This document shows positions 7,852 through 22,133 of a DNA stretch of 22,133 bases, piece after piece. Numbering within the stretch: position 1 is the stretch's first letter; each line of letters opens with the position of its first letter. The notes beneath the pieces were generated by a model, which had not been told where the DNA came from, did not search any database, and saw only the letters and a list, made by a program, of their open reading frames with translations. The stretch spans positions 1 through 22,133 of the IMG/VR virus record IMGVR_UViG_3300017775_000642. One strand, 5' to 3'. This DNA is from a virus. The translations under genes and the position numbers were made by a program.

Positions 7852-7914
7852 CCATGGACAATCTCTGTCAACAATAACAAGTAGCAACATACTACTATTC
7901 CAACCATGGACAAT
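7852..7914. repeat. 11-bp direct repeat CCATGGACAAT flanking the divergent start region
   Basis: CCATGGACAAT occurs at 7852-7862 and again at 7904-7914, 52 bp apart start to start. The first copy overlaps the minus-strand Shine-Dalgarno and the second contains the methyltransferase start codon. This may be chance or a small operator pair. Confidence 0.4.
7893..7898 (+). promoter_or_regulatory. Candidate -10 (TACTAT) for a leaderless methyltransferase mRNA
   Basis: TACTAT ends 7 nt before the ATG at 7906, and no Shine-Dalgarno precedes that ATG. A TANNNT box at this distance would place the transcription start at or next to the A of ATG, as in leaderless actinobacterial genes. Confidence 0.4.
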
Positions 7915-8478
7915 AAATTAAACGTCGGTTGTGGAACCCATTACATAAATGGTTGGACCAATACCGATGTATGGCAGGATGATAAACACACCCCAGATAT
8001 TCTGTTGAAGGCCAATGAGCCTTATCCATTTGACGACAACTCCATAGATTGCATTTACCTTGGGCACGTTCTGGAACACATCCCTTGGCTAGAAGTTGCA
8101 ATATTCCTAAACGACATGCAACGGATTGCAAAACCCGAAGCGCCCATTCTCATAGCCGGACCAGACCTTTACAGAACCATCAAACTCTGGCGTGAAGGAC
8201 AACTCCCATGGGATCTAGTTGAGTCCGTCATGGAGCATCAGGACATTGACGCTTCCATCAATCGACTAGAAAGCAACACCGACTACTGGGAAAATGCAGC
8301 CCATCATTGGAACTGTCATGAGGCAAGACTTCTTGAAATTACCAAGAGAATTTTCCCCAACGCCACAGCGATCAGTAATGACATAACTTCCAGCCCATGG
8401 CTGGATCCGATAACAGGTATTGAGTGGCCCGTGGTGGGCTATTCCCCTTGGCAGTGTGCCGTAAGGTGTACCGCATGA
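7906..8478 (+). CDS. Class I SAM-dependent methyltransferase (Methyltransf_11-like)
   Basis: 190 residues. LNVGCGTHYINGWTNTDV (5-22) is motif I plus the acidic end of strand 2 (D21). PDILLKANEPYPFDDNSIDC (30-49) and IYLGHVLEHI (50-59) are the usual motif II/III wording of small predicted SAM methyltransferases linked to polysaccharide loci. The C-terminal part contains the WPVVGYSPWQCAV stretch, likely the last strands. There is no Shine-Dalgarno, and a TACTAT box lies 7 nt upstream. It heads a four-gene operon with a coiled-coil protein, a dioxygenase and a glycosyltransferase, so its acceptor is probably a sugar or small-molecule intermediate. Confidence 0.85.
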   Translation: MDNKLNVGCGTHYINGWTNTDVWQDDKHTPDILLKANEPYPFDDNSIDCIYLGHVLEHIPWLEVAIFLNDMQRIAKPEAPILIAGPDLYRTIKLWREGQLPWDLVESVMEHQDIDASINRLESNTDYWENAAHHWNCHEARLLEITKRIFPNATAISNDITSSPWLDPITGIEWPVVGYSPWQCAVRCTA

Positions 8479-8633
8479 GTTTTGATACTGGCAACTTTGA
8501 AGAACATCTCCTTCAGGAGATAGCCGACCTGAAGGATGTAATCGCAGATCAAGAAGAACGCATTCGTTCCTTTGATCAAAGACTCGGAATTCATTGGAAG
8601 ATCATTGAAAAACAAGTGGATTGGGTGATATGA
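8475..8633 (+). CDS. Small coiled-coil protein (52 residues)
   Basis: The ATG at 8475 overlaps the methyltransferase TGA (ATGA), and its own TGA overlaps the dioxygenase ATG at 8630 in the same way. A longer in-frame reading from 8424 lies inside the methyltransferase gene. Residues 8-45 (EEHLLQEIADLKDVIADQEE, then RIRSFDQRLGIHWKII) form an amphipathic helix. Its place between two enzymes suggests a partner or adaptor. No family recognised. Confidence 0.6.
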   Translation: MSFDTGNFEEHLLQEIADLKDVIADQEERIRSFDQRLGIHWKIIEKQVDWVI

Positions 8634-9508
8634 ACATCCATCCAGATTATTTTAAAGGATTTTATGAGGCCGATGTTATAGAAGATTGGCCAAACAGAAG
8701 TGAACTCCCTTGGTTAGACCAAGAATCCAACGGGCCGGAAACAGACCTTCAGGCCGAATGGCAAGATGACGGTGTGGTCATTCTCTCAGAATTTATGCCC
8801 GATGAACTAATAGATGATTATTGTGAGGCTTGGATAAAAGACAACGGAAGTCACAAGATTCGACCGATGGGCTGGCCCTTCGACGTTCCTTATATGTATG
8901 TCAACTCTCTTATGGACATGCTTTCGTACAAGCCGCTCACGGATATCATGACAAGTCTTATTGGTGAACCAATGGCCACGCACCTGAACCTCACGGGCTG
9001 GCGCTCCACACAGAGGAATTGGCATCAAGATGGGTATTTAAACCCTGATACCAACCGTGACTTTTACATGGCCGTCTGGGTTGCCCTTGATGATATCCAT
9101 CCAGACGCAGGACCATTTCAATTTGTTCGTGGTTCACACAGGTTCCCGGTGATCACCAACGAAAAGATTCTCGGCGTTCTCGGACCTAATGCAAAGTCTG
9201 ATCCGAATTGGCCTAAGTATTCAGAAGAAATACTCACACCCCTTTTTGAACAACTCATCGTGGACGCCGACCTGACGGTGGAACCGTTCTTGGCCAAACG
9301 TGGGGACGTTCTGCTGTGGCATGGAAGACTCATGCATCGTGGAAGCATCCCGAACGATCCCGAACTAGAACGACGAGCCTGTATCGCCCACTTCTCTGGC
9401 ATTTGGCACAGACCCGATATGCCTAGTCCAGCATTGTCTCGGATCGGTTTCAGGCATCATCACCAACTAGACGGACATTATTTTCCCATTACTCAAAATT
9501 ATGTCTGA
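8630..9508 (+). CDS. Phytanoyl-CoA dioxygenase (PhyH)-family 2OG-Fe(II) oxygenase
   Basis: 292 residues from the ATG at 8630 (overlap ATGA with the preceding gene); a TTG at 8621 is possible. DDGVVILSEFMPDELIDDY (46-64) is the usual PhyH N-terminus. The iron triad is visible as WHQDG with H132 and D134, and LMHRGS with H236; R248/R249 follow and may bind the 2-oxoglutarate carboxylate. AGPFQFVRGSHRF (160-172) is the typical GSH strand motif. The family hydroxylates small substrates such as lipids, nucleosides or secondary metabolites; the substrate here is unknown. Being between a methyltransferase and a glycosyltransferase, it likely helps to decorate a glycan or nucleotide precursor. Confidence 0.9.
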   Translation: MNIHPDYFKGFYEADVIEDWPNRSELPWLDQESNGPETDLQAEWQDDGVVILSEFMPDELIDDYCEAWIKDNGSHKIRPMGWPFDVPYMYVNSLMDMLSYKPLTDIMTSLIGEPMATHLNLTGWRSTQRNWHQDGYLNPDTNRDFYMAVWVALDDIHPDAGPFQFVRGSHRFPVITNEKILGVLGPNAKSDPNWPKYSEEILTPLFEQLIVDADLTVEPFLAKRGDVLLWHGRLMHRGSIPNDPELERRACIAHFSGIWHRPDMPSPALSRIGFRHHHQLDGHYFPITQNYV

Positions 9509-10117
9509 ATGCTAACTGTAATCATTGCTTCTTACCAGTATGGCCATCTGGCCGCACACTGTATTGAAAGTCTTTTATCCCAAACAAGACAGCCAGACAA
9601 GATTCTGTTTGTCGATGATGGTGTTGGTGACTGCACACATCTCCCAGATATTTATCCTGAGATTGAGTACGTCTTGCGGGAGGAAAACCTTGGCACGGTA
9701 GACAACTTCCAAGACATGCTCATGAGAGTGCAAACCGAATACACAATGTTTATCGGTGCGGACAACTGGTTCCGTTCCGATGCTGTGGAGAAACTGTTGG
9801 AACAAGATGCCGACATTGTTACTTACGAAATCATGGTGACCGGAGAGTTCAAGATGGGTCATCGTGACGCGGGATTGCCTGACGTTATAAGAGGTGGGGA
9901 TGTCTACTGGCGTTGGGACGGACATCACGGTTCCATGATGTATCGCACATCCTTTGGACAGGCAGCGGGGTACGCGGCCAAGGAAGGACTAGAACACGCG
10001 TGCGAGGATTGGGAACTATGGGATCGGATGTTGGAGAAGGGTGCCACCGTTGCCCACATAGAAGAACCGCTGCTCTACTACAGGAGACACAGAGAGAACT
10101 TTATCGACTGCCGCTAA
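9509..10117 (+). CDS. Family 2 glycosyltransferase (GT2, GT-A fold)
   Basis: 202 residues; the ATG directly follows the upstream TGA. MLTVIIASYQYGHLAAHCIE starts the Rossmann-like domain, QTRQPDKILFVDDG contains D36/D37, and GADN (83-86) stands where the DxD metal/sugar-nucleotide motif is expected (only one acidic residue before Asn). CEDWELWDRM (165-174) supplies the conserved ED/W acceptor-site motif. The C-terminus ends PLLYYRRHRENF, typical of GT2 domains. It is a soluble enzyme without TM segments, short compared with usual 250-300-residue GT2s. It may glycosylate a phage or host surface component. Its stop codon overlaps the stop of the convergent dioxygenase. Confidence 0.9.
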   Translation: MLTVIIASYQYGHLAAHCIESLLSQTRQPDKILFVDDGVGDCTHLPDIYPEIEYVLREENLGTVDNFQDMLMRVQTEYTMFIGADNWFRSDAVEKLLEQDADIVTYEIMVTGEFKMGHRDAGLPDVIRGGDVYWRWDGHHGSMMYRTSFGQAAGYAAKEGLEHACEDWELWDRMLEKGATVAHIEEPLLYYRRHRENFIDCR

Positions 10118-10842
10118 GGGATTCTGCGAGGGTCAATATTTTCAACGACATTCCCATTTACAAGATAATCGGGATAGTCGCTTGCTGATCTAGTTCGACA
10201 GAATCCATTCATGTAAGTCATTCTAGAATCAGTTGACTTATTTGCTTCGCTCCCGTGAACAATCATCACCGACCAAAGCATCATGTCACCTTTTCGGGCT
10301 GTGTACTTCTTTCCCTTGTACCGCTTTCTTTCAAAGGCTCGTAGATCCTCAGGAATACTGAACGAATCCCAAAAGTGTGACCCCGTGATGAATTCGACAG
10401 GACTGTTATCTTCCTTGATGTCATCCACAACAATAATTGTTTGCAGATAGTCAGTAGGAAGAGTGGAAGAAAAGATATGGCTTTCTCTAAAGATCGTGTC
10501 CCGGTGCCAAGCGAAGGTGTCGAAGTCTCCGGCTTCTCTAAAATAGATTTGATTATTGATTTGCCGGACATCATCTCCAAGAAACTCACGCACAATATCG
10601 AACATACGTTCGTCTGTTCTGATGGAGTTGAGATACTCGTTGGCTAATGCAGGGAAAAAGATTAGAGACTTTTTGTTGTATGCCTGCTCGCTTGGAACAT
10701 GCCTGTACCCGGATTGTTTTATCTGATCGTCAGTAACCCCGTATGCCTCTTCTTTAATCCGGTCGCATTCCTCTGCGGAGAACACCGAAGGAATAACGAC
10801 AACACCGTCTTCCTCATAGGCGCGCTTAAATCCAGTCAACAT
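10114..10842 (-). CDS. Second PhyH-family 2OG-Fe(II) oxygenase
   Basis: 242 residues from the ATG at 10842 (MLTGFKRAYEEDGVVVIP), which begins the PhyH fold naturally; ATGs at 10872 and 10869 add ten residues and have AAGG upstream, so the start is uncertain. The triad is visible: WHRD with H113 and D115, IVHGSEA with H196, and SRMTY with R207 as probable 2OG ligand. NSPVEFITGSHFWDS contains the GSH motif. It overlaps the deacetylase gene by 17 bp. It is only distantly similar to the plus-strand PhyH protein at 8630-9508, so it is a separate acquisition or an old duplicate. Substrate unknown; its neighbours (deacetylase, methyltransferase) suggest glycan chemistry. Confidence 0.88.
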   Translation of the reverse strand: MLTGFKRAYEEDGVVVIPSVFSAEECDRIKEEAYGVTDDQIKQSGYRHVPSEQAYNKKSLIFFPALANEYLNSIRTDERMFDIVREFLGDDVRQINNQIYFREAGDFDTFAWHRDTIFRESHIFSSTLPTDYLQTIIVVDDIKEDNSPVEFITGSHFWDSFSIPEDLRAFERKRYKGKKYTARKGDMMLWSVMIVHGSEANKSTDSRMTYMNGFCRTRSASDYPDYLVNGNVVENIDPRRIP

Positions 10843-11332
10843 AATTACTGAAAAGTCTATACGGGTCATCATGTACGCCTTGAGTAACTGCGTATGCCTG
10901 CTTATAGCCCGCCCGCTTCACACATTGAACAACCAGATCGTTGTATTCGCCATAGGGATAGCGAAAATATTTTGTTTGAAACGGCGCTGCCACCTCCTGC
11001 GTGATCTCCCTTTCGGACAGTTCACAAAGGTTTCTGTGTGACCAAGTGTGCCATCCGATCTCAAAGTCGTATCTCCTACATAGTTCTTTGACTTCGCCAA
11101 GTGTGCAGAAACTTTCCAGTTTGGGCACGTTTTCTAAATCGAATTCGTTATTGCCGCCCAGATGATCCCCCATAACGAACATAATCCCAGACTTGTTTCG
11201 CAAAACATCCTGATTTTTGTAAACACTACGGTAGACGCCATCGAAACCTATGGGTTCTTGACAGGCAAGGATCTGCTCACGGGTGTGATAGTTGGAATGT
11301 TTTATATTCCCGATGTTATGTGCAAGTCTCAT
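10826..11332 (-). CDS. Polysaccharide deacetylase (CE4/NodB-like) with atypical motif 1
   Basis: 168 residues, starting inside the last codons of the methyltransferase gene (17-bp overlap). The NodB-homology motifs: motif 2 is clear as IGWHTWSHRNL with H95 and H99 (HxxxH metal ligands); motif 3 is KYFRYPYGEYN (121-131). Motif 1, normally TFDDG, reads IGFDGVY (D31), so one of the two aspartates is missing. The domain is short (200 is usual) and has no signal peptide, so it would act in the cytoplasm. The family removes N- or O-acetyl groups from polysaccharides; here perhaps a lipid- or nucleotide-linked sugar. The lost Asp may mean reduced or altered activity. Confidence 0.82.
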   Translation of the reverse strand: MRLAHNIGNIKHSNYHTREQILACQEPIGFDGVYRSVYKNQDVLRNKSGIMFVMGDHLGGNNEFDLENVPKLESFCTLGEVKELCRRYDFEIGWHTWSHRNLCELSEREITQEVAAPFQTKYFRYPYGEYNDLVVQCVKRAGYKQAYAVTQGVHDDPYRLFSNYVDWI

Positions 11333-11801
11333 AAACGTTGAATACCGAAGTGTATTCCCTGTAAGGAAATTTGAAAGTATCTACCATTCTCCCAAATGGA
11401 TAGGGCAACAACCAATCATCTATTCCACCGATACAGACATACTTACTGGCAGCGTCCAACGCTTGCTTGGCTATTCGTTCATGGTCGTACTGCCTATACA
11501 GCAAACCGGTAACTAGAACTAGATCGTACTTTCCTTTCGGGGCGAACACGCGTTCGACATTCTTAGGAAACCTGCTTGCAGCATTGTCACTGATCTCTAT
11601 CCCGTGGATCTCTTTAGCGGGAAGATCCCCCGTTATGAACCCCTGACCAGCACCGATGTCCAATGCTCTGTCGAAGTATTCATCCAGATTATCTAAAACT
11701 GTCAGATAAAAACGTTTGCGGTAGATGTCATCAGGCGTGACCGTGTAATCCCACGGATCATTCTGCTCATACCATTCTTCAAGTTCTTGCTTGGTCTGCA
11801 T
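11316..11801 (-). CDS. Class I SAM-dependent methyltransferase (NodS-like)
   Basis: 161 residues; the ATG directly follows the TGA of the upstream gene. The N-terminus EEWYEQNDPWDYTVTPDDIY resembles NodS/tellurite-type methyltransferases that begin with a (Y/F)-x-x-xDPW motif. Motif I is LDIGAGQGFIT (47-57), the acidic residue after strand 2 is E69 (HGIEIS), and KYDLVLVTGLLYRQYD (91-106) is the motif-II strand. NodS-type enzymes N-methylate sugar amines next to deacetylated positions, and the next gene is a deacetylase, so deacetylation followed by N-methylation of an amino sugar is a natural reading. This is inference. Confidence 0.85.
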   Translation of the reverse strand: MQTKQELEEWYEQNDPWDYTVTPDDIYRKRFYLTVLDNLDEYFDRALDIGAGQGFITGDLPAKEIHGIEISDNAASRFPKNVERVFAPKGKYDLVLVTGLLYRQYDHERIAKQALDAASKYVCIGGIDDWLLPYPFGRMVDTFKFPYREYTSVFNVYETCT

Positions 11802-12644
11802 TCATAACGCTTCGATTTGGTCTGCAATTCTCCTGAGTTGATCGGACAGACTCGGAGCCATCTCAGCCATCGTGTCCACCGGCTTCGGCGGTGCCTCAAT
11901 GATCTTCTCTGATTCTGCGGTTTCCTTAGCAGCCTCTTCCTTTTCAGCAATCATCCGGGCAATGGCATCCCAGTCAATGCCGGGATCCAACGGATCAGGA
12001 CCAAGATTCTCCAACTTGTAATCGGAGATGTCCCACGCCATATTCTCAGGAGACACAGCAGGTCCGCCGTAGTAAGCGTCCAGCCACGCCCATACCACCG
12101 CCGTCTTGTCAGTAACGACAAGATTGTGGCGAACCCAATCGCCTCCGTCTACTCGGGCACGAATAAAACCTTCATCAAAATCGGCTTCACATTCAAAAAG
12201 AACAGCATTGCCGCCCACCTTGAGTTGTCCAACCTTGACCGAATCGCCCCACTTCGGAACTTGACCTAGATGATAGAAGTACATGCCGATAGGCATAAAC
12301 CCATCTTTAGTCTTGCCAAACCATGTGCGGAATGAAAACCCGTCCGGATTGGGTTGTCGGTTGCCGTGCCCGTAGGACCGGCCCCTGCTGTCCTTATAGC
12401 GAAGGTCAGCAAACCCCAGCGTCTTTCCCGTACTGTGGGAATTCCAATTGCCAAGTGCCCTCACCATGTAAGAAACTTTCACATGGCGACACGGAGGCAC
12501 CTCTTTGTAGAGGGCACACCCGTAGTGATTACCCTCACGGAACATCAGCCGTAGAGCGTCACCGCTCACATAAGCGTTTTTGATGTCCCCGCTCCACGAA
12601 TCCTGCCACCCCTCTTCAAAGGTTTCATGAACCAAAATGGACAT
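11802..12644 (-). CDS. Lectin/polysaccharide-lyase-like beta-sandwich protein
   Basis: 280 residues; the ATG at 12644 has AGGAG 7 nt upstream. Residues 1-215 are strand-rich with KVSYMVRALGNWNSHSTGKT, GFSFRTWFGKTKDGFMPIGM, YFYHLGQV-type and VVWAWLDAYYGGPAVSPENM segments. The order (long beta strand, FxxR, YxxH, then W-x-D-x-YYGG-x-x-SPEN) resembles the concanavalin-like fold of PL14/alginate-lyase-type and LamG proteins found in phages. The C-terminal ~65 residues switch to a charged helix (AIARMIAEKEEAAKETAESE) and end in IADQIEAL, perhaps an attachment or trimerising tail. It leads the minus-strand half of the modification island. It might bind or cleave surface polysaccharide, as a virion protein. 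Catalytic residues cannot be named with confidence. Confidence 0.6.
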   Translation of the reverse strand: MSILVHETFEEGWQDSWSGDIKNAYVSGDALRLMFREGNHYGCALYKEVPPCRHVKVSYMVRALGNWNSHSTGKTLGFADLRYKDSRGRSYGHGNRQPNPDGFSFRTWFGKTKDGFMPIGMYFYHLGQVPKWGDSVKVGQLKVGGNAVLFECEADFDEGFIRARVDGGDWVRHNLVVTDKTAVVWAWLDAYYGGPAVSPENMAWDISDYKLENLGPDPLDPGIDWDAIARMIAEKEEAAKETAESEKIIEAPPKPVDTMAEMAPSLSDQLRRIADQIEAL

Positions 12645-13492: not shown

Positions 13493-16400
13493 TCATGGAT
13501 ACTCCACATCAGCATCTCTAATAGTCAACCTGTACCAACCGTCGTTGTTTTGGTTGTAGACCGAACCTCGCAGTACATAGTCTCCCGCAGAAAGTTCTCT
13601 CTCAATACGACTATCCCAAGAGTCAGACACATTATCTATAACTGCGTCACCGTTAGAGAGCGTCACATTCGGAGTTTCATCTACGTCTTCTGCGCTGCTT
13701 GGCGGGTTATTGCAGGTATTCCCGCAATCCCTACCCCCATCGTCGTCGGATTCAATGCTGCCGCCAACCGTTATTTCTGATGTGTCTCCTGAATGTTCGC
13801 CGTCATCTGAATCAGTGTCGTGATTGAGGAAGATGTAGGGATCTCCGTATGGGCCACTGTTGAACGCCGCTTGGGTCATATTCGTTTCAGCATCAATACG
13901 AATATCCATAAGCCCATCACCGTCTTCACAGTCACAGGCTTCGTTTTCTTCTGCTGCGGTCGGTACGGAAAATGCAACAGCGGTCATATCGTTGCTGCGG
14001 TGATTGGATTCGATAATGCACCAGTCTCCTAGCCCGGTAAATCCACCCTGAGAACAGGACTGAGGTACAGGGTCGGCAACAGTTGTTACCACAGTGGAGG
14101 TGCTGGTTGTATCCCCTACGGTGACTGTTGTTTGAGACGGTTCCCACGTTACGGTTTGCTGACAGGAAGCAAGTTGTCCGTCGCTATAGGTGCAGAATTG
14201 ATTGCTTACACCGGCTTGAGAGATTGCCGTGGTGGTGTCCACATACGAATTGTCTGTTGTGGTAACCGTTGTCTCTGTGGTGTACCAATAATCGTCTGAG
14301 GCTAAGTCAAGTACAGCCGATGAAGTAGCCGTAACCAACTGACTGGTCAGATCATTCACTGTGGCACTAGACAGCACTTGAGAAACTGGTGTGTCGATAC
14401 TGGTATAAGTAATCGTTGGATAATAAACGGGAGGCGGGGGAGGGATGTACGCCTCTTGGACTTCTTCGGGGAGGTATTCCTGAGCGACATCTATTGGGAC
14501 TATCCCTGCCTCAACCTCAATGGTGAAGTCAATCCATGTGGTATACCCACCCGGCGGAGTACCCCATTCATCGTAATAAGTAGGATCATTGGCTGCGTCG
14601 TAGTCCTCCCAAGTGTCAAAGCCGCCGGGAGCCATGGAGCAAGCGTCTGTGCCCCTACAGCCTTCATAGGGGTCTACCCACCCCGGTTCCTCTGGTTCCG
14701 GCTCTGGTTCTGGTTCCGGCTCCGGCTCTGGTTCCGGTTCCGGTTCTGGTTCTGGTTCTACTTCTTCTGAAGGCACCTCCTCTTCATCCATTTGCTCTTC
14801 ATCCACTTCTTCTTCTTCAGGTAAAGAGCCGTCGGATTCTGAGTCCTCGTCAACTTCTGGCCATTCTTCCTCATTCCCGTCGCTGTTTATTTCCTCTTCC
14901 AACTCATCTTCCCACAACTCTTGCTGTTCTTCGTCAAAGGCTTGCCAATCTTCTTCCGACCAATCCCACGACTCGCTTGGTGACGGACCCCAGTCCTCTG
15001 GCCATTCATCAAGCCCTTCCTGATCAAGAATCCACTGCTCCTCATCCTCGCCGGTCCAGTTTTCGTCCCCCCACTCATCTTCAAGCCAAGGCTCTTCCCA
15101 GTCGTCGTCAGAGTTACCTTGTTGCTGGTCATCGTCCCACTCCTCAAAAGGCTCCTCTAACTCGCTATCTGATTCTTCGATAGTTTCTTCCGAATCTGGC
15201 CCATCTCCTTCAGTCTCTTCAGATTCAGTCTCTTCTTCAATTCCTTCGCCCTCATCAACTTCTTCTTGTATCTCCTCGCTTCCCTCTGGCTCTTCTTCAA
15301 ATTCCTCTTCCCAAAGTGCTTCCTGTTCTTCGTCATACGTCATCCAATCTTCTTCTGTCCAATCCCAACTGTCACTAGGGGATGGACCCCAATCTTCGGG
15401 CCATTCATCAAGCCCTTCTTGATCAAGAATCCAAGCCTCTTCGTCCTCCCCGGACCATTGTCCAGTTTCCTCTAATGCCTCAATCGTTTCTTCTTCCCAT
15501 TGGTCCAACTCTTCTGGGCTGAGATCCCCAAGGATTTCAAGGAACTCCTGTTCCCGTTCTTCGTCGTAAGCCTGCCAATCGTCTTCTGTCCAATCCCAAG
15601 ACTCGGCAGGAGACGGACCCCAGTCCTCCGGCCATTCTTCAAGTCCCATTTCTTCAAGGATCAACGCTTCCTCATCATCACCCGTCCACTCGTCCCATTC
15701 CTCAAAAGGCTCTTCAACCCACTCCTCCTCAACTTGTTCTTCTTCTTCAACCCATTCTTCTTCTACTTCCTCTTCCCAAGATGCTTCCTCTTCTTCCCAC
15801 AATGCCTGCATTTCTTCGTCGTAAGCCTGCCAGTCACCGTCATCCCACAATGCGGTTTCACTGGGGGACGGACCCCAATCTTCCGGCCACTCCTCAAACC
15901 CTTCCTCTTCAAGAATCCGCGCTTCTTCATCAACCGCCCACTCTTGGTCGTAGGCGTCCCAGTCTTCTTCAGTCCACTCAGCCGATTCCGTGGGTGACGG
16001 ACCCCAATCTTCAGGCCATTCCTCTACGCCCAATTCCTCTAGTAGTTCTTCTTCCCACGCCTCCGGGTTGTCCATCTCCTCTTCCCAGATGGCATCCATT
16101 TCCTCGTCGTAGGTGTCCCAGTCTTCTTCCTCCCACTCCACAGTCTCGGTGGGGGATGGACCCATCAGATCTTCGTTCCATTCCTCCAAACCCATTTCCT
16201 CAAGGATCATCTCCTCTTCTAGTTCGGCGTCGTATTCTTGGAACGCGAAATCCTCTTCGTAATATTCTTCTTCGTACTCCTCCCAGAACTCCTCCTCATC
16301 AAACTCTTCGTGTTCGGCAAAGAACACGGTTCGTTCTTCTTCGACCTCCTCCATAAATGATTCAACTTCTTCAAACAGTTCTTCGACATCGACAGCCTCA

Positions 16401-18508
16401 CCAAAGAGATCGTCCATCAACTCCTGTTCTTCTTCAAACCATTCATCGTCGTATTCGACTTCATCCCACTGCTCGTCTTCCCAATACTCCTCATCCACGC
16501 TGAGAAGGATTTCGATGAAATCAATTTCATCGTCTTCAAATATTTCGGGGGCTTCCCACTCCTCAACTGATTGAATCTCTTCAACGTAAGAAGCACCCAA
16601 CACTTCTTCAATGCGGTCTTCAGCGATCGCTTGGAAATACTCAGCGTCAGAAGCAACCCACGCTTCGATCTCAACTTCTTCTTGTACTATTTCCCCGACT
16701 TCTTCATCGAACACCAGTTCGATAAGAACGGGAACGATTACGGGTTCCGATGGTGGAGGAGGAGTGGTCGATGGTTCATTAGGAATGGTGACAGTTGGCT
16801 CATCGAACACCTGTTCGACAACCCGGTAAGCGGTCATGTCAACCTCTACCTCAGCCAGTACCTCACCTTGATCGTTCTGAATGGCGATATCCAGCATGTC
16901 CCTGACTGGCTCAGGCTCAGGCTCTGGGGCACCGGGCTGCTCAGGTTCTGGCTCCGGGTCCGGGTCCGGTTCTGGTGCAAAGACCACCTCAATCTGCTGA
17001 CCAGACTCCAACTCAATTTCAACCTCTAGGGCATCCACGGCAATCGCTACAGTGGCTTCTTCAATATCAGCAATTTCAATTGCGTCATCAGAGAAGTCCA
17101 ACAACGACTGAACCTCTTCAGGCTCTGTTTCTTCTTCAGGCTGCTCCCACCGCTCAGGCTCCTCTTCCTCCACGATGACGGCTTCGATCTGAATAGATTT
17201 CTCTTCATTCAAAACCAGCAAAGAAAACTTCTGCTCAGTCTCTTCTTCTACCTTTTCCTCTAATGCCTCTTCAATCCTGTCCTTAGTGGAAGTTGGCTTT
17301 TCTACTTCAGGAGTTGGAACGTGGATCTCTTCTACGTCTGCGGAGAATGACTCCACCCCCGGCGGAAGGAATACGAGAACCGGATCAGCGGTACTTGGTC
17401 CTGAAATCAAATAACGATAGGTAGCACCTTCGATTTCATTAACGAACACGCCGTCGTAGTACCCCAGCCTGTCACCTGATTCAGTTTCAATCTTGAGAGC
17501 CATCTGCTTGTCGCCGGAAGCAGCAACAGTAAGCATCGTGCCCGATTCTTCTCCCTCTTCCTGAGGACAGAAACTGCATGTGAATGGGCCAGACCGGGAA
17601 CGCATGGGGGTGAGTTCCATCGTCCCCGTCCCACCAGACCAAGCCTCCGATTGTTCCGTAGGATTGGTCGCAGCGAGGGCGTACAACCACTGGCCGTCGT
17701 TAGATACGTCAATCCAGCGTTCTTCGTTGGGCCAGTTGCTGTCGTATATGTAGATTCTGTAACCACCGGCCATTTCTTCGACCCGGTAAGGGGTGACAGC
17801 GTGTCCGCCCATTTCGCTGTAAATACCGATTGTGAAGCCAGTGTGTGGGTTTCCCCTTTCCGCTTCTGAGAAGTCGTAGAGAAGAACCTCTGCCAACTCC
17901 TTGGGAGACTTTTCTAAATACGAGGAGGCTTCCTGCTGTACCTCCATGGCGAACTGGGTTACATACCAGTAGGCGATTTCAGAGAGGAGGGCCGGATCCT
18001 GTTTGATGAGTTCCGCAACAGTTTGCGTGTTTTGGAAAGTCGCAAGGGTTTCTATGTCGCCTGCGAGGCGGAGGCTCAACACTGCCAAGCCTTCGCACAA
18101 TCCTCCACGCATTGACTTGTTGGCCTGAGACATCAACTGCAAGATCACCGGGTACGGCGTACATTGACCGTCGGTTACATCTGAACAGACTTGGTTGTCG
18201 CCATACAGACGACGCGCCATGTTTACTGTCAGGTCTGCCGGTGCCTCGCCACCACCAAAGTTCTCAAATGAGAAGGTGTCCTCATTGGCCGTGTAATCCG
18301 GAATGGAATGATCCGCTAGGGGAACTTCTTCAAGAATTTTTGGAGTGATGGTCGTAGTCGGAACGACCAAACCAGTGGTCGTTGTAACCACACTGGTAGT
18401 TGTAGGAGGAAAGAGAGTGGTCGTCGGCGCGTCAGGATCTCCGGCAGGAGAGGAGCATCCGAAGAAGAACAGCGACCCCGCGAGCAGAGTGGCGATAAAC
18501 CGTTTCAC
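13493..18508 (-). CDS. Giant acidic surface lipoprotein with papain-like domain and EEWPEDWGPSP repeats
   Basis: 1671 residues, GTG start at 18508, five bases after the upstream gene. Residues 1-18 (MKRFIATLLAGSLFFFGC) are a lipoprotein signal with C18 as probable lipid site. Residues 28-54 are a Thr/Pro-rich stalk. Residues ~95-285 look like a papain-like cysteine peptidase: GGLCEGLA (C137), GGHAVTPYRV (H236) and IYIYDSNWP (D256, N258). After K437 no lysine occurs in the remaining 1234 residues, while Glu, Asp and Trp abound. Six ~35-residue repeats lie at 768-1194 (see separate entry), a run of (Glu-Pro)11 starts near 1251, and a Thr/Ser-rich region follows. CDCEDGDGLMDI near 1520 is a calcium-loop-like motif. 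The C-terminal ~80 residues (GDAVIDNVSDSWD, SAGDYVLRG, GWYRLTI) resemble a PPC domain. It is probably exported and tethered to the host membrane. Its role is unknown: wall remodelling, exclusion, or adhesion. Confidence 0.85.
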   Translation of the reverse strand: MKRFIATLLAGSLFFFGCSSPAGDPDAPTTTLFPPTTTSVVTTTTGLVVPTTTITPKILEEVPLADHSIPDYTANEDTFSFENFGGGEAPADLTVNMARRLYGDNQVCSDVTDGQCTPYPVILQLMSQANKSMRGGLCEGLAVLSLRLAGDIETLATFQNTQTVAELIKQDPALLSEIAYWYVTQFAMEVQQEASSYLEKSPKELAEVLLYDFSEAERGNPHTGFTIGIYSEMGGHAVTPYRVEEMAGGYRIYIYDSNWPNEERWIDVSNDGQWLYALAATNPTEQSEAWSGGTGTMELTPMRSRSGPFTCSFCPQEEGEESGTMLTVAASGDKQMALKIETESGDRLGYYDGVFVNEIEGATYRYLISGPSTADPVLVFLPPGVESFSADVEEIHVPTPEVEKPTSTKDRIEEALEEKVEEETEQKFSLLVLNEEKSIQIEAVIVEEEEPERWEQPEEETEPEEVQSLLDFSDDAIEIADIEEATVAIAVDALEVEIELESGQQIEVVFAPEPDPDPEPEPEQPGAPEPEPEPVRDMLDIAIQNDQGEVLAEVEVDMTAYRVVEQVFDEPTVTIPNEPSTTPPPPSEPVIVPVLIELVFDEEVGEIVQEEVEIEAWVASDAEYFQAIAEDRIEEVLGASYVEEIQSVEEWEAPEIFEDDEIDFIEILLSVDEEYWEDEQWDEVEYDDEWFEEEQELMDDLFGEAVDVEELFEEVESFMEEVEEERTVFFAEHEEFDEEEFWEEYEEEYYEEDFAFQEYDAELEEEMILEEMGLEEWNEDLMGPSPTETVEWEEEDWDTYDEEMDAIWEEEMDNPEAWEEELLEELGVEEWPEDWGPSPTESAEWTEEDWDAYDQEWAVDEEARILEEEGFEEWPEDWGPSPSETALWDDGDWQAYDEEMQALWEEEEASWEEEVEEEWVEEEEQVEEEWVEEPFEEWDEWTGDDEEALILEEMGLEEWPEDWGPSPAESWDWTEDDWQAYDEEREQEFLEILGDLSPEELDQWEEETIEALEETGQWSGEDEEAWILDQEGLDEWPEDWGPSPSDSWDWTEEDWMTYDEEQEALWEEEFEEEPEGSEEIQEEVDEGEGIEEETESEETEGDGPDSEETIEESDSELEEPFEEWDDDQQQGNSDDDWEEPWLEDEWGDENWTGEDEEQWILDQEGLDEWPEDWGPSPSESWDWSEEDWQAFDEEQQELWEDELEEEINSDGNEEEWPEVDEDSESDGSLPEEEEVDEEQMDEEEVPSEEVEPEPEPEPEPEPEPEPEPEPEPEEPGWVDPYEGCRGTDACSMAPGGFDTWEDYDAANDPTYYDEWGTPPGGYTTWIDFTIEVEAGIVPIDVAQEYLPEEVQEAYIPPPPPVYYPTITYTSIDTPVSQVLSSATVNDLTSQLVTATSSAVLDLASDDYWYTTETTVTTTDNSYVDTTTAISQAGVSNQFCTYSDGQLASCQQTVTWEPSQTTVTVGDTTSTSTVVTTVADPVPQSCSQGGFTGLGDWCIIESNHRSNDMTAVAFSVPTAAEENEACDCEDGDGLMDIRIDAETNMTQAAFNSGPYGDPYIFLNHDTDSDDGEHSGDTSEITVGGSIESDDDGGRDCGNTCNNPPSSAEDVDETPNVTLSNGDAVIDNVSDSWDSRIERELSAGDYVLRGSVYNQNNDGWYRLTIRDADVEYP
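14690..14758 (-). repeat. Glu-Pro dipeptide tract, (EP)11
   Basis: The minus strand encodes eleven consecutive Glu-Pro pairs (gaa/gag cca/ccg variation), then EEPGW. A shorter, Asp-containing version, EPDPDPEPEPE plus APEPEPEP, is at about 16909-16975. Synonymous codons vary, so the peptide seems to be conserved rather than recently expanded. EP tracts are rigid rod-like spacers. Confidence 0.85.
14927..16207 (-). repeat. Six-copy protein repeat (I/L)LEEMGLEEWPEDWGPSP...YDEE
   Basis: Copies, 5' to 3' on the minus strand, begin at 16207, 16045, 15916, 15661, 15430 and 15031, each about 105 nt (108 in the first). The invariant core is GPSP preceded by EEW/DEW-(P)EDW and followed by (S/T)E(S/T)-x-x-W-x-x-x-DW-x-x-(Y/F)D(E/Q)E. 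Unit spacing is 162, 129, 255, 231 and 399 nt, filled by variable Glu/Trp-rich linkers, so it is not a simple tandem. The first copy is the most diverged (NEDLM for PEDW), and copies 5 and 6 (ILDQEGLDEW) are closest to each other, suggesting late duplication. Third positions differ between copies. Confidence 0.9.
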
Positions 18509-20161: not shown

Positions 20162-20464
20162 ATGGCTTTACGAAACAGTTGGGAAGAAGCAGGATCCCTT
20201 TACGACCCCGCGAAACATCTGAGCGCTACTGAATTCAACTTGGCTGTCCTCATGTTTATTATTGGTTTGGATTGGGAGGACGAAGCCACTATAACTTTTG
20301 ACGACATTATCAATGGCATTCGTGACAACTACACTGGCGGCGACAACGCCAGAACACTAGCGATCGACACTGCCGCAAATTCGTATCTTGAAACTGAACG
20401 ATCTCTTTTGCTTCAACTCGCTCGTCGGGCACATCGCCAACGTCAAATAGCAGAGGCAGCGTAA
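20162..20464 (+). CDS. Hypothetical 100-residue helical protein
   Basis: ATG at 20162 with only weak GAAAGAA upstream. MALRNSWEEAGSLYDPAKHL is followed by SATEFNLAVLMFIIGLDWED, a helix with one hydrophobic stretch too short for certain membrane insertion, and a long C-terminal basic helix (ERSLLLQLARRAHRQRQIAE). The A of its stop codon is shared with the start of the next gene (TAATG), so the two are translationally coupled. Family unknown. Confidence 0.65.
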   Translation: MALRNSWEEAGSLYDPAKHLSATEFNLAVLMFIIGLDWEDEATITFDDIINGIRDNYTGGDNARTLAIDTAANSYLETERSLLLQLARRAHRQRQIAEAA

Positions 20465-21213
20465 TGTCTAGTCATTGGTTTGAAACCGGTCGCATCGCTC
20501 AAGAATTTTCCAATAGCCCTAATATTGATACAGACATGGTTAGCGACTACGCAACTTCCGTACTTGCACATTATGACGCAATCAATATGGACCGCAGAAG
20601 TATCGCCATCTCTGACGATTACGCACTCATCCAGTATGAGACTTACCAAAACCCTGATCCGAATTGGGCTGCGATGATGTGGATCGCCTACACGACTGAA
20701 AGCATGGTCGTGGACATGCTGGACACCGGGGGGACTCTGAAAATACTTACTCCCATTTTCGTTCCCCTTGTCACACTGTTCGATGACCTTGAGAACACAG
20801 GACGAGAGTACACATTTGTAAACAATTGGAATCTTCACCACTTTGAACAGTTCGCTCTCACACAACCAGCCGTGGCAGCGAACTATCCCGACGCACGATA
20901 TTCAGCAGTAGACGAACAGGACATCCTTGACGGATCTTTGGCCGGAACTTACGACGTTGTGCGAAGCACTCCCATAGGGTTCTTTGGCCCAAATACAAAA
21001 CTTCTAGATGCCTATTTGGACACACTCAAAGTTGGCGGTGTAATGATTTGGTTTGAGTCTAGCGAATGGACATCCATTTACGCTAATGGACTATCCCAGA
21101 CACATACTAGTTTTTATACACGATTCGCTAAACATCTTGCCGCAAAAACCGACTTCACCGTCTATCATATACCGATGGAACATGGCGTAACTGTCTGCAA
21201 AAGAACGTCGTAG
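20464..21213 (+). CDS. Unknown 249-residue protein, possibly a degenerate methyltransferase fold
   Basis: TAATG overlap with the upstream gene. The C-terminal half has a Rossmann-type end: GTYDVVRSTPIGFFGPNTKL, then LLDAYLDTLKVGGVMIWFES, which matches strand 4, helix D and the LxxGGxMI strand 5 of SAM methyltransferases. The place of motif I (residues ~78-90, VDMLDTGGTLKILTP) lacks the GxGxG loop, so SAM binding is doubtful. The protein also has DEQDILDGSLAG, which would be strand 3/loop. Alternatives are a non-catalytic relative or another alpha/beta fold. It is the largest complete gene of the rightward operon. Confidence 0.6.
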   Translation: MSSHWFETGRIAQEFSNSPNIDTDMVSDYATSVLAHYDAINMDRRSIAISDDYALIQYETYQNPDPNWAAMMWIAYTTESMVVDMLDTGGTLKILTPIFVPLVTLFDDLENTGREYTFVNNWNLHHFEQFALTQPAVAANYPDARYSAVDEQDILDGSLAGTYDVVRSTPIGFFGPNTKLLDAYLDTLKVGGVMIWFESSEWTSIYANGLSQTHTSFYTRFAKHLAAKTDFTVYHIPMEHGVTVCKRTS

Positions 21214-21221
21214 GGATAATC

Positions 21222-21467
21222 ATGGATTTTGAAACAACGCTCTCAAATTCAGAAAAGCGAAGTCTGCTTGAGCAAGCCATTGCTGACGTAGAGTCACAGG
21301 TTCGCAGACTGTCATGGACGATTGGCACCGACCCCGACGACCTATCTGCTTCTTATACCGCACCCGCTGCGACCCCAACCGACGATTATGTGTTGGAACA
21401 CAAACTGGAAGATGTTTGCACCCGACTCACTAATCTAAAAACAGAACGTGACGCCGTACCCTCGTAA
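21222..21467 (+). CDS. Small protein with RLSW-G-DPDDL motif, paralog B
   Basis: 81 residues; AGGGA about 6 nt before the ATG. MDFETTLSNSEKRSLLEQAI is followed by ADVESQVRRLSWTIGTDPDD, then LSASYTAPA and EHKLEDVCTRLTNLKTERDA. Compared with the gene at 19453, the shared positions are the MDF start, the IAD-x-E helix, RLSW-x-x-G-x-DPDDL-x-A-x-Y-x-APA, and the LED helix. A 15-nt identity, cgaccccgacgacct, persists at the DPDDL codons. The two copies bracket four unrelated small genes in the same operon. Function unknown. Confidence 0.75.
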   Translation: MDFETTLSNSEKRSLLEQAIADVESQVRRLSWTIGTDPDDLSASYTAPAATPTDDYVLEHKLEDVCTRLTNLKTERDAVPS

Positions 21468-21482
21468 CGAGTCCTTTACTGA

Positions 21483-21488
21483 TAATCT
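21483..21488 (+). promoter_or_regulatory. Candidate -10 (TAATCT) for a leaderless oxygenase mRNA
   Basis: TAATCT, inside CTGATAATCT, ends 6 nt before the ATG at 21495, and no good Shine-Dalgarno precedes that ATG. Third example of this arrangement in the window. Confidence 0.35.
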
Positions 21489-21494
21489 GGATTG

Positions 21495-22133
21495 ATGGGT
21501 TCCGTATTTGAAATGCCGATGATTGACGGTTCCGACTGTCAATCTATCTCTGATCTTGAACTGCACAACTATGGCAGTGGCATTGTCTTGTTCAAAAACG
21601 CCATTGATGTTGATCAAAAATCGGTTCTTCCTTATTTGGACGAACGGGTTACATTTGCTGATTGCGGTATCAAAGTTATAGAAGAAAACGGAGATCGTTG
21701 GGCCGAAGACTTTTTGGGCAACGTAGTCGAAGGCGGCTTAGAAATGCTGTCCGAACAGGCACTCCGTTTAGGGTCTGATGCGGACAACATGCCCGTACAG
21801 GACGACACTCCTGAACCGGTTGCTGATTTCTTCCAATCCTGTGAAGAAGTCATATACAAATCTCTTATTAGATACATCGACATGCATCCAATGATTTTGA
21901 ATACCCTTTGGTGGAAAAACCGTGGTCACATTCTTAAGTACAGTTCCAACGGTATCCTTGGGGAACACAACGATAACGACACCAACTTTCGCGTTATAGA
22001 CGGTCAGCGATATTTTACGCTCAGACCGCAAGCCATCTATCAAGTTTTAGCCTGCATCGTCTATTTGTACGACGAATACGAAGGGGGAGAAATGTACTTC
22101 CCCTACGCCGATGTTGTTTTTTTTACTGTTACC
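21495..22133 (+). CDS. Prolyl-4-hydroxylase-like 2OG-Fe(II) oxygenase, partial (runs off right edge)
   Basis: 213 codons are open from the ATG at 21495 to the edge; the C-terminus is missing. The N-terminal part includes NYGSGIVLFKNAIDVDQKSV. The catalytic half shows LKYSSNGILGEHNDND, in which H-x-D (HND) is the first pair of iron ligands, then QAIYQVLACIVYLYDEYEGG followed by EMYFPYADV. The LY(D/N)-x-x-YEGGE-x-x-FP string is the hallmark of prolyl-4-hydroxylase-type oxygenases. The distal His and the 2OG Arg/Lys lie beyond the edge. The preferred start is uncertain; an ATG at 21513 is possible. It is the third 2OG-Fe(II) oxygenase in the window and belongs to a different branch from the two PhyH proteins. 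Confidence 0.82.
   Translation, partial: MGSVFEMPMIDGSDCQSISDLELHNYGSGIVLFKNAIDVDQKSVLPYLDERVTFADCGIKVIEENGDRWAEDFLGNVVEGGLEMLSEQALRLGSDADNMPVQDDTPEPVADFFQSCEEVIYKSLIRYIDMHPMILNTLWWKNRGHILKYSSNGILGEHNDNDTNFRVIDGQRYFTLRPQAIYQVLACIVYLYDEYEGGEMYFPYADVVFFTVT

Follow-up and report, generated by a model that had tools for sequence, protein, structure and literature searches.

A recurrent phage gene cassette encoding a NodS-like methyltransferase, a CE4-fold protein, a PhyH oxygenase and a glycosyltransferase, with a proposed role in glycan tailoring

The virus record IMGVR_UViG_3300017775_000642 (G000), whose 22,133 bp make up the window analysed here, carries between positions 7906 and 12644 two convergent, densely packed strings of genes. 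Four of these genes, coding for a NodS-like methyltransferase (MT2), a protein with the fold of CE4 polysaccharide deacetylases (CE4), a PhyH-family oxygenase (PhyH2) and a family-2 glycosyltransferase (GT2), form a cassette that recurs in other phages. The terminal stop codons of the two strings overlap, GT2 ending at 10117 and PhyH2, on the opposite strand, at 10114 (Table 1). The open reading frame (ORF) of PhyH2 is open to 10872; its start was taken at the ATG at 10842, approximately where its homologues begin. A preliminary description of this DNA had reported the two packed, convergent strings, and the ORF layout bears this out. Six of the seven enzymes that it named have family support, namely two methyltransferases (MT2 by a sub-threshold match in Pfam), two PhyH proteins, GT2 and CE4; the seventh, a supposed lectin or lyase, has none, and an ORF of 69 amino acids had been overlooked.

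Table 1. Genes of the two convergent strings, listed in order along each string.
Feature	Coordinates	Strand	Description
MT1	7906..8478	+	Methyltransf_11-type methyltransferase, accessory to PhyH1
Small ORF, 69 aa	8424..8633	+	between MT1 and PhyH1; SlyX-like or coiled-coil, weak sub-threshold matches only
PhyH1	8621..9508	+	second PhyH-family oxygenase, separate accessory module
GT2	9509..10117	+	soluble family-2 glycosyltransferase, cassette gene 4, inverted in the window's lineage
280-aa protein	11802..12644	-	outside the cassette, no known family
MT2	11316..11801	-	NodS-like methyltransferase dependent on S-adenosylmethionine (SAM), cassette gene 1
CE4	10826..11332	-	short polysaccharide-deacetylase-fold enzyme, non-canonical motif 1, cassette gene 2
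PhyH2	10114..10842	-	PhyH-family Fe(II)/2-oxoglutarate oxygenase, optional cassette gene 3

The core of the locus, in the order MT2, CE4, PhyH2, GT2 and mostly with all genes in one orientation, is present in dozens of IMG/VR phage contigs from several lineages. A scan of IMG/VR with PhyH2 returned 55 loci, and nearly all of the complete ones have the four genes in this order; a CE4 profile scan returned at least 80 loci, and the counts that follow cover the matches listed. Since some loci are repeats of one contig, contigs sharing sequence were merged before counting (58 groups, in which the largest phage lineages still carry most weight), and gene orders were read by six-frame profile searches of the grouped contigs. 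The full order was found in 26 groups, with one further group containing a second GT2, and the order MT2, CE4, GT2, lacking PhyH2, in 14. The form with GT2 inverted is represented by three groups, which are the window's own lineage; in most other lineages GT2 is co-oriented with MT2, CE4 and, where present, PhyH2. Rarer arrangements were PhyH2, MT2, CE4 (two groups), MT2, CE4, GT2, PhyH2 (one) and MT2, CE4, PhyH2 (one), while MT2 and CE4 stood alone in four groups and CE4 alone in one. As a single-sequence query MT2 found little; its spread was read off the CE4 and PhyH2 loci. Upstream sequence of 700 bp or more was available for 51 CE4 genes, and 50 of these have MT2 directly upstream, within 300 bp, which makes the MT2-CE4 pair the most constant element of the cassette. 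Thus, the succession of a NodS-like methyltransferase and a deacetylase, which the preliminary description had singled out, holds across divergent phages, and its proposed comparison with other phages did not find MT2, CE4, PhyH2 and GT2 scattered singly and shuffled among unrelated neighbours.

The CE4 sequences form 29 clusters at 80% identity and 12 at 60%, and therefore do not stem from one phage sequenced many times. The pairwise divergences of the four cassette proteins are correlated (rho 0.45-0.86, Mantel p 0.001), as expected under co-inheritance; by itself, this correlation is no proof of joint function. Phages commonly carry methyltransferases, PhyH proteins and glycosyltransferases as cargo, and the eight-gene assembly in the window is a composite, both of which would fit an accidental cluster of environmental-phage cargo without any joint function. 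We regard this explanation as very improbable: for the core four genes it is contradicted by the fixed order and pairing across divergent lineages, by block-wise gain and loss and by the conservation of catalytic residues; MT1, the small ORF and the 280-aa protein are the genes to which it still applies.

The four cassette proteins have recognisable families and folds. In Pfam, MT2 gives a sub-threshold match to Methyltransf_23. A profile built from 35 homologues has NodS (3ofj) as its top match in the PDB (E 3.6e-5), and the columns D48, G50 and G52 of the SAM motif are invariant. MT2 lies far below the cut-off of the NCBIfam NodS equivalog model (12.4 vs 300 bits) and is thus NodS-like at most, not assignable as NodS. 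CE4 matches PF01522 (Polysacc_deac_1) with 43.3 bits (cut-off 23.1). Its AlphaFold model (m48af88c9aef3; predicted local distance difference test score, pLDDT, 89.9) has structural matches to IcaB (4wcj, Z 15.3), PplD (Z 15.0) and PgaB (Z 13.6). Residues H5, D31, G32, H95, H99, Y125 and P126 are invariant in all 54 CE4 sequences compared; H95 and H99 provide the zinc motif H(S/T)xxH of motif 2, mostly as HTWSH. A turret protein of the tailed virus HFTV1 (Haloferax tailed virus 1, 8qpg) also matches the CE4 model (Z 8.9 over 127 residues); it hints at a CE4-like virion domain and is taken here only as a shared fold. PhyH2 matches PF05721 with 86.9 bits (cut-off 22), keeps the Fe(II)/2-oxoglutarate columns H123, D125, H206 and R217 invariant and has the ectoine hydroxylase EctD as its nearest protein in the PDB. 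GT2 matches PF00535 (Glycos_transf_2) with 53.8 bits (cut-off 23.3), with invariant motif columns VDD, GADNW and ED. None of the four proteins has a strongly hydrophobic segment, and they would therefore be expected to act in the cytosol.

Closely related phages differ by the cassette as a block. Two sister contigs of a lineage with WhiB and RecA, L017 and L172, align over 8,985 bp at 88.7% and over a further 2,732 bp at 88.9% identity; the 3,113 bp that lie between these flanks in L017, containing MT2, CE4, PhyH2, GT2 and one further ORF, correspond to 14 bp in L172. The slot is also without insert in L160/L162 and L167. In L157, L158, L161, L164 and L168 it holds, instead of the cassette, genes for LicD (PF04991, 40.5 bits), a CTP_transf_like protein (40.1 bits) and DUF3307. 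One genome slot is thus either empty or filled by one or the other of two sugar- or polymer-decorating modules, and the exchange with LicD and cytidylyltransferase genes favours a role of the cassette in glycan decoration. Plug-in decoration genes are not unprecedented, since a licD/ispD insertion has been described in only some Flandersviridae phages (PMC8008677). That insertion is likewise a two-gene decoration module in some members of a syntenic group, and LicD with a cytidylyltransferase is the alternative state of the cassette slot; the slot differs from the Flandersviridae case in alternating between LicD-type genes, the four-gene block and an empty state. The LicD, cytidylyltransferase and DUF3307 module lies at L161:1455-2718 and occurs in the relatives L188-L194; a scan with LicD gave seven contigs.

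On a finer scale, exactly PhyH2 is missing, without a scar, from L119, L101, L096, L126 and L099 when each is compared with a relative ~82-99% identical around it. In the absence of PhyH2, CE4 joins GT2 directly, mostly through an ATGA-type overlap resembling the PhyH2 junctions. This suggests that PhyH2 is a dispensable tailoring step.

The genes around the cassette differ between lineages. One cassette lineage consists of T4-like myoviruses, with a DNA polymerase (phrog_262, 1090 bits) whose nearest named records are Synechococcus phages (53-54%); another has T4-like baseplate genes, and a third has genes for WhiB, RecA, an Erf-like protein and an exonuclease. The window itself carries WhiB and metallophosphoesterase genes, nearest to those of Clavibacter and Microbacterium phages (35-42% identity), with most other matches in mycobacteriophages. 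In several divergent phages the MT2-CE4 pair lies among structural genes. MW202801, a complete podovirus, and L143 have it between the major capsid gene and tail genes; it adjoins the terminase in L130, L139, L140 and L146, is flanked by portal and major capsid in L145, and has tail genes downstream of it in L149. Genes found repeatedly nearby code for further glycosyltransferases, NAD-dependent epimerases and FkbM methyltransferases, and MW202801 also encodes a radical-SAM protein. In L145 the pair and a glycosyltransferase-like gene are followed by a gene for a PIG-L GlcNAc de-N-acetylase (9155-9775), so that two unrelated deacetylase families stand side by side.

In the annotated phage collection, relatives of PhyH2 and CE4 (40-45%) occur only in MW202801, which also comes from a metagenome. 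Among GTDB genomes the sole close locus is L057 (PAOV01000021.1, from a marine Chloroflexi bin), itself a phage-like contig; the same single-sequence scan gave 38 viral loci. A single-query scan can miss relatives. In a profile search of 400 genomes of the phylum of L057, the L057 record scored 278.6 bits and the next 59.3. No family-level relative in cultured phages or cells was thus found in the annotated collection, the GTDB scan or the 400-genome search, and within the limits of these searches the cassette family is apparently virus-restricted. A cellular origin was considered and rejected, the one close cellular locus being phage-like and a family-range score being limited to that record among the 400 genomes. 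L057 is a clear relative of the window phage and also has an Amidase_2 gene downstream of the cassette. The hints as to the host conflict, WhiB pointing to Actinobacteria and the bin of L057 to Chloroflexi.

We consider it quite likely that the cassette serves glycan tailoring of some kind. Our favoured explanation, to which we give an even chance, is a horizontally exchanged, apparently virus-restricted tailoring set with a virion protein as the likeliest acceptor. Inside the infected cell, GT2 would transfer a sugar, probably an N-acetylated amino sugar, onto a cytosolic acceptor; the CE4-fold enzyme would strip the N-acyl group, the NodS-like MT2 would N-methylate the freed amine, and the optional PhyH2 would hydroxylate or oxidise the product. 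The acceptor would most likely be a phage structural protein, or a glycan on one, giving each phage a changeable surface decoration. The order of steps that we infer follows an analogy, NodS methylating only after deacetylation by NodB (PMC5080398); the substrate, the activity of CE4 and the virion target are likewise proposals of this scheme. Deacetylation followed by N-methylation has, in our judgement, somewhat less than an even chance of being the actual chemistry, and the virion is about equally likely to be or not to be the target.

As in the rhizobial NodC-NodB-NodS pathway for the N-methylglucosamine end of the Nod factor (PMC5080398), genes for a NodS-like methyltransferase and a CE4/NodB-fold enzyme lie together with one for a glycosyltransferase of family 2. 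The cassette differs from that pathway in its short soluble GT2, the added PhyH, the altered motif 1 of CE4, the lack of a visible NodA and its being phage-borne; its MT2, as noted, also falls well outside the NodS model. NodC/NodB/NodS-type chemistry yields a secreted molecule in rhizobia (PMC5080398), and by that precedent the cassette's product might be a small, diffusible N-methylated amino-sugar compound and not a surface glycan. This we judge highly unlikely, as no NodA-like acyltransferase or exporter was noticed. Moreover, GT2 is a soluble core of 202 amino acids, unlike NodC, which is a polymerising membrane enzyme.

Several observations weigh against a deacetylating, N-methylating set that acts on the virion. 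Canonical motif 1 of CE4 enzymes is TFDD, with the base and a metal-binding Asp (motif definitions from PMC6415152). In all 54 cassette sequences it reads FDG; the first Asp is kept, and the residue aligned to the metal ligand is Gly. Motif 3 (RxxPY, with the base-tethering Arg) also departs from the canon, residue 124 being Ala in 37 of 54 sequences and Arg in only 15. With one Asp of motif 1 lost and the Arg of motif 3 usually lost, deacetylation is uncertain; from these alignments, CE4 would either use an unusual metal site or catalyse a different reaction. The cassettes of the T4-like and RecA-bearing lineages lie by DNA polymerase or recA, not by structural genes; the correlated divergences of the four proteins may merely mirror common descent; and phage LicD has been read as a modifier of the host surface (PMC8008677). 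The preliminary description had taken the methyltransferase-deacetylase pair as a means of making N-methylated amino sugars. The near-constant pair and the LicD swap agree with that proposal, the departures of CE4 at motifs 1 and 3 do not, and the chemistry is accordingly put forward here as a hypothesis.

The main rival to a virion target is that the same enzymes decorate surface glycans of the host, or cytosolic lipid-linked precursors, during infection and so block the adsorption of competitors. We think this possible, if rather doubtful. The exchangeable LicD/cytidylyltransferase module resembles modifiers of teichoic acid or lipopolysaccharide, the licD insertion in some Flandersviridae has been read in that way (PMC8008677), and the presence or absence of the block together with the optional PhyH2 would fit diversifying selection on a surface epitope. 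On the other hand, among 28 cassette records, most of them possible fragments, none has GtrA or an above-cut-off Wzx and two have an integrase, unlike classical temperate-phage seroconversion. GtrABC serotype conversion resembles the cassette as phage glycosyltransferase cargo that changes a surface glycan; by these counts, the cassette does not belong to that class. The enzymes are soluble, without membrane anchors, and in several lineages the MT2-CE4 pair sits inside the late head/tail module. The virion is therefore favoured as target, on the grounds of pairs within structural modules, soluble enzymes, the absence of GtrA and of above-cut-off Wzx from these records and the rarity of integrases.

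Phage glycosyltransferases and 2-oxoglutarate oxygenases hypermodify DNA in the systems attributed to Pyle et al. 2024 (as cited in PMC12619734), and the oxygenase, glycosyltransferase and tailoring enzymes of the cassette could in principle modify bases of the phage genome. A gene with a Tet_JBP domain is present in the T4-like record L021 (172,991 bases) at 111747-112133, ~18 kb from the cassette, and in the T4-like lineage the cassette is close to a DNA polymerase gene. Such a function is nevertheless very unlikely: among 24 records, most of them possible fragments, Tet_JBP occurs in one and a C5 DNA methylase (DNA_methylase) in five, which does not make the cassette a TET/JBP-type system; its oxygenase is a PhyH protein nearest to ectoine hydroxylase in the PDB, and GT2 has no match to TAGT.

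For decoration of the virion there is precedent in mycobacteriophages such as Che8, in which phage glycosyltransferases are thought to glycosylate capsid or tail proteins (Freeman et al. 2023, as cited in PMC11256854 and PMC12619734). In those citing accounts the enzymes are glycosyltransferases, whereas the cassette is a fixed set with a CE4, a methyltransferase and an oxygenase, known from its genes alone. CE4-fold proteins of environmental viruses have also been reported from mangrove soil as auxiliary carbohydrate genes (PMC6460857); these reportedly retain every active and metal-binding residue and were interpreted as acting in polysaccharide degradation, whereas the cassette CE4 lacks one Asp of motif 1 and stands in a biosynthetic-looking context. 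A literature search of partial coverage gave no paper joining phage PhyH and polysaccharide deacetylase with a methyltransferase and a glycosyltransferase. The family parts are known; in the literature searched there was no report of the fixed cassette, of its exchange in the slot or of the optional oxygenase. As a speculative extension, the phages might have a phage-specific, horizontally exchanged system of switchable virion glycotypes, in which an N-methylated amino sugar is made by the NodS-like, CE4 and GT2 enzymes, PhyH hydroxylation is switched by gaining or losing its gene without a scar, and the block is interchangeable with LicD phospho-decoration in the same slot. Surface glycans of phages have been described in few systems, with hardly any work on how they are tailored; here, a compact cassette spans several unrelated phage groups. 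Its presence, absence or replacement in phages that are otherwise much alike provides natural comparison pairs that could reveal the role of phage or host-surface sugars, and the cassette may supply small, soluble enzymes for N-methylation and hydroxylation of amino sugars.

The remaining genes of the two strings have distributions of their own. MT1 matches PF08241 (Methyltransf_11) with 27.5 bits (cut-off 21.2), and PhyH1 matches PF05721 with 58.9 bits (cut-off 22), with HxD and HRG motifs present. All six viral contigs found with MT1 as query also carry PhyH1, and the two occur together in whole contigs of up to 105 kb without any CE4 gene; no MT1 was recovered from L002-L007, the closest relatives of the window. 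In L057, MT2, CE4, PhyH2 and GT2 are collinear at another site, and PhyH1 and the 280-aa protein remain at the site they have in the window. L002 has an inverted GT2 that follows on from PhyH1, and a gene of the IMPDH family lies between this GT2 and PhyH2; in L057 that gene follows GT2. From these layouts and the occurrence of MT1 and PhyH1 without CE4, it follows that the two halves in the window are different modules brought together, and that the convergent layout is a derived, local rearrangement in the closest relatives. The single eight-gene, two-operon island of the preliminary description thus reduces to a recurrent four-gene core within a local composite, and its matching of one methyltransferase and one PhyH protein to each half is true of the window and not conserved among relatives. 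A conserved eight-gene island is ruled out by the separate distributions of MT1/PhyH1 and of the 280-aa protein. Convergence as a functional design is also ruled out, being confined to the lineage of the window (L002-L007), with the four genes collinear elsewhere in L057. The IMP dehydrogenase/GMP reductase-family gene adjoins GT2 at L002:10746-11768 and L057:11895-12917 (PF00478, 303 bits in L057) and is not at that place in the window.

Searches of Pfam, PHROGs, NCBIfam, PDB sequences and phage records gave no match for the 280-aa protein, previously described as lectin- or lyase-like, and its AlphaFold model (pLDDT 39) is too poor to read, so that the label has to be dropped. The protein is 79-95% identical within the window's lineage; it is not part of the module, because in L057 it keeps its position beside the nuclease gene while the cassette lies elsewhere. 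Further along the window, on the minus strand (13493-18508), is a protein of 1,671 amino acids without a Pfam or PHROG match; its N-terminal part contains Cys/His motifs that recall a papain-like fold, and it has a lipoprotein-like signal (LFFFGCSS) and long, acidic repeats rich in E and D. At the right edge, on the plus strand (20464-22133), a possible third enzyme pair consists of a 249-aa protein with distant relatives in L002 and L006 and, beside it, a 2OG-Fe(II) oxygenase-like ORF (phrog_61, E 0.0014) that runs off the end of the window.

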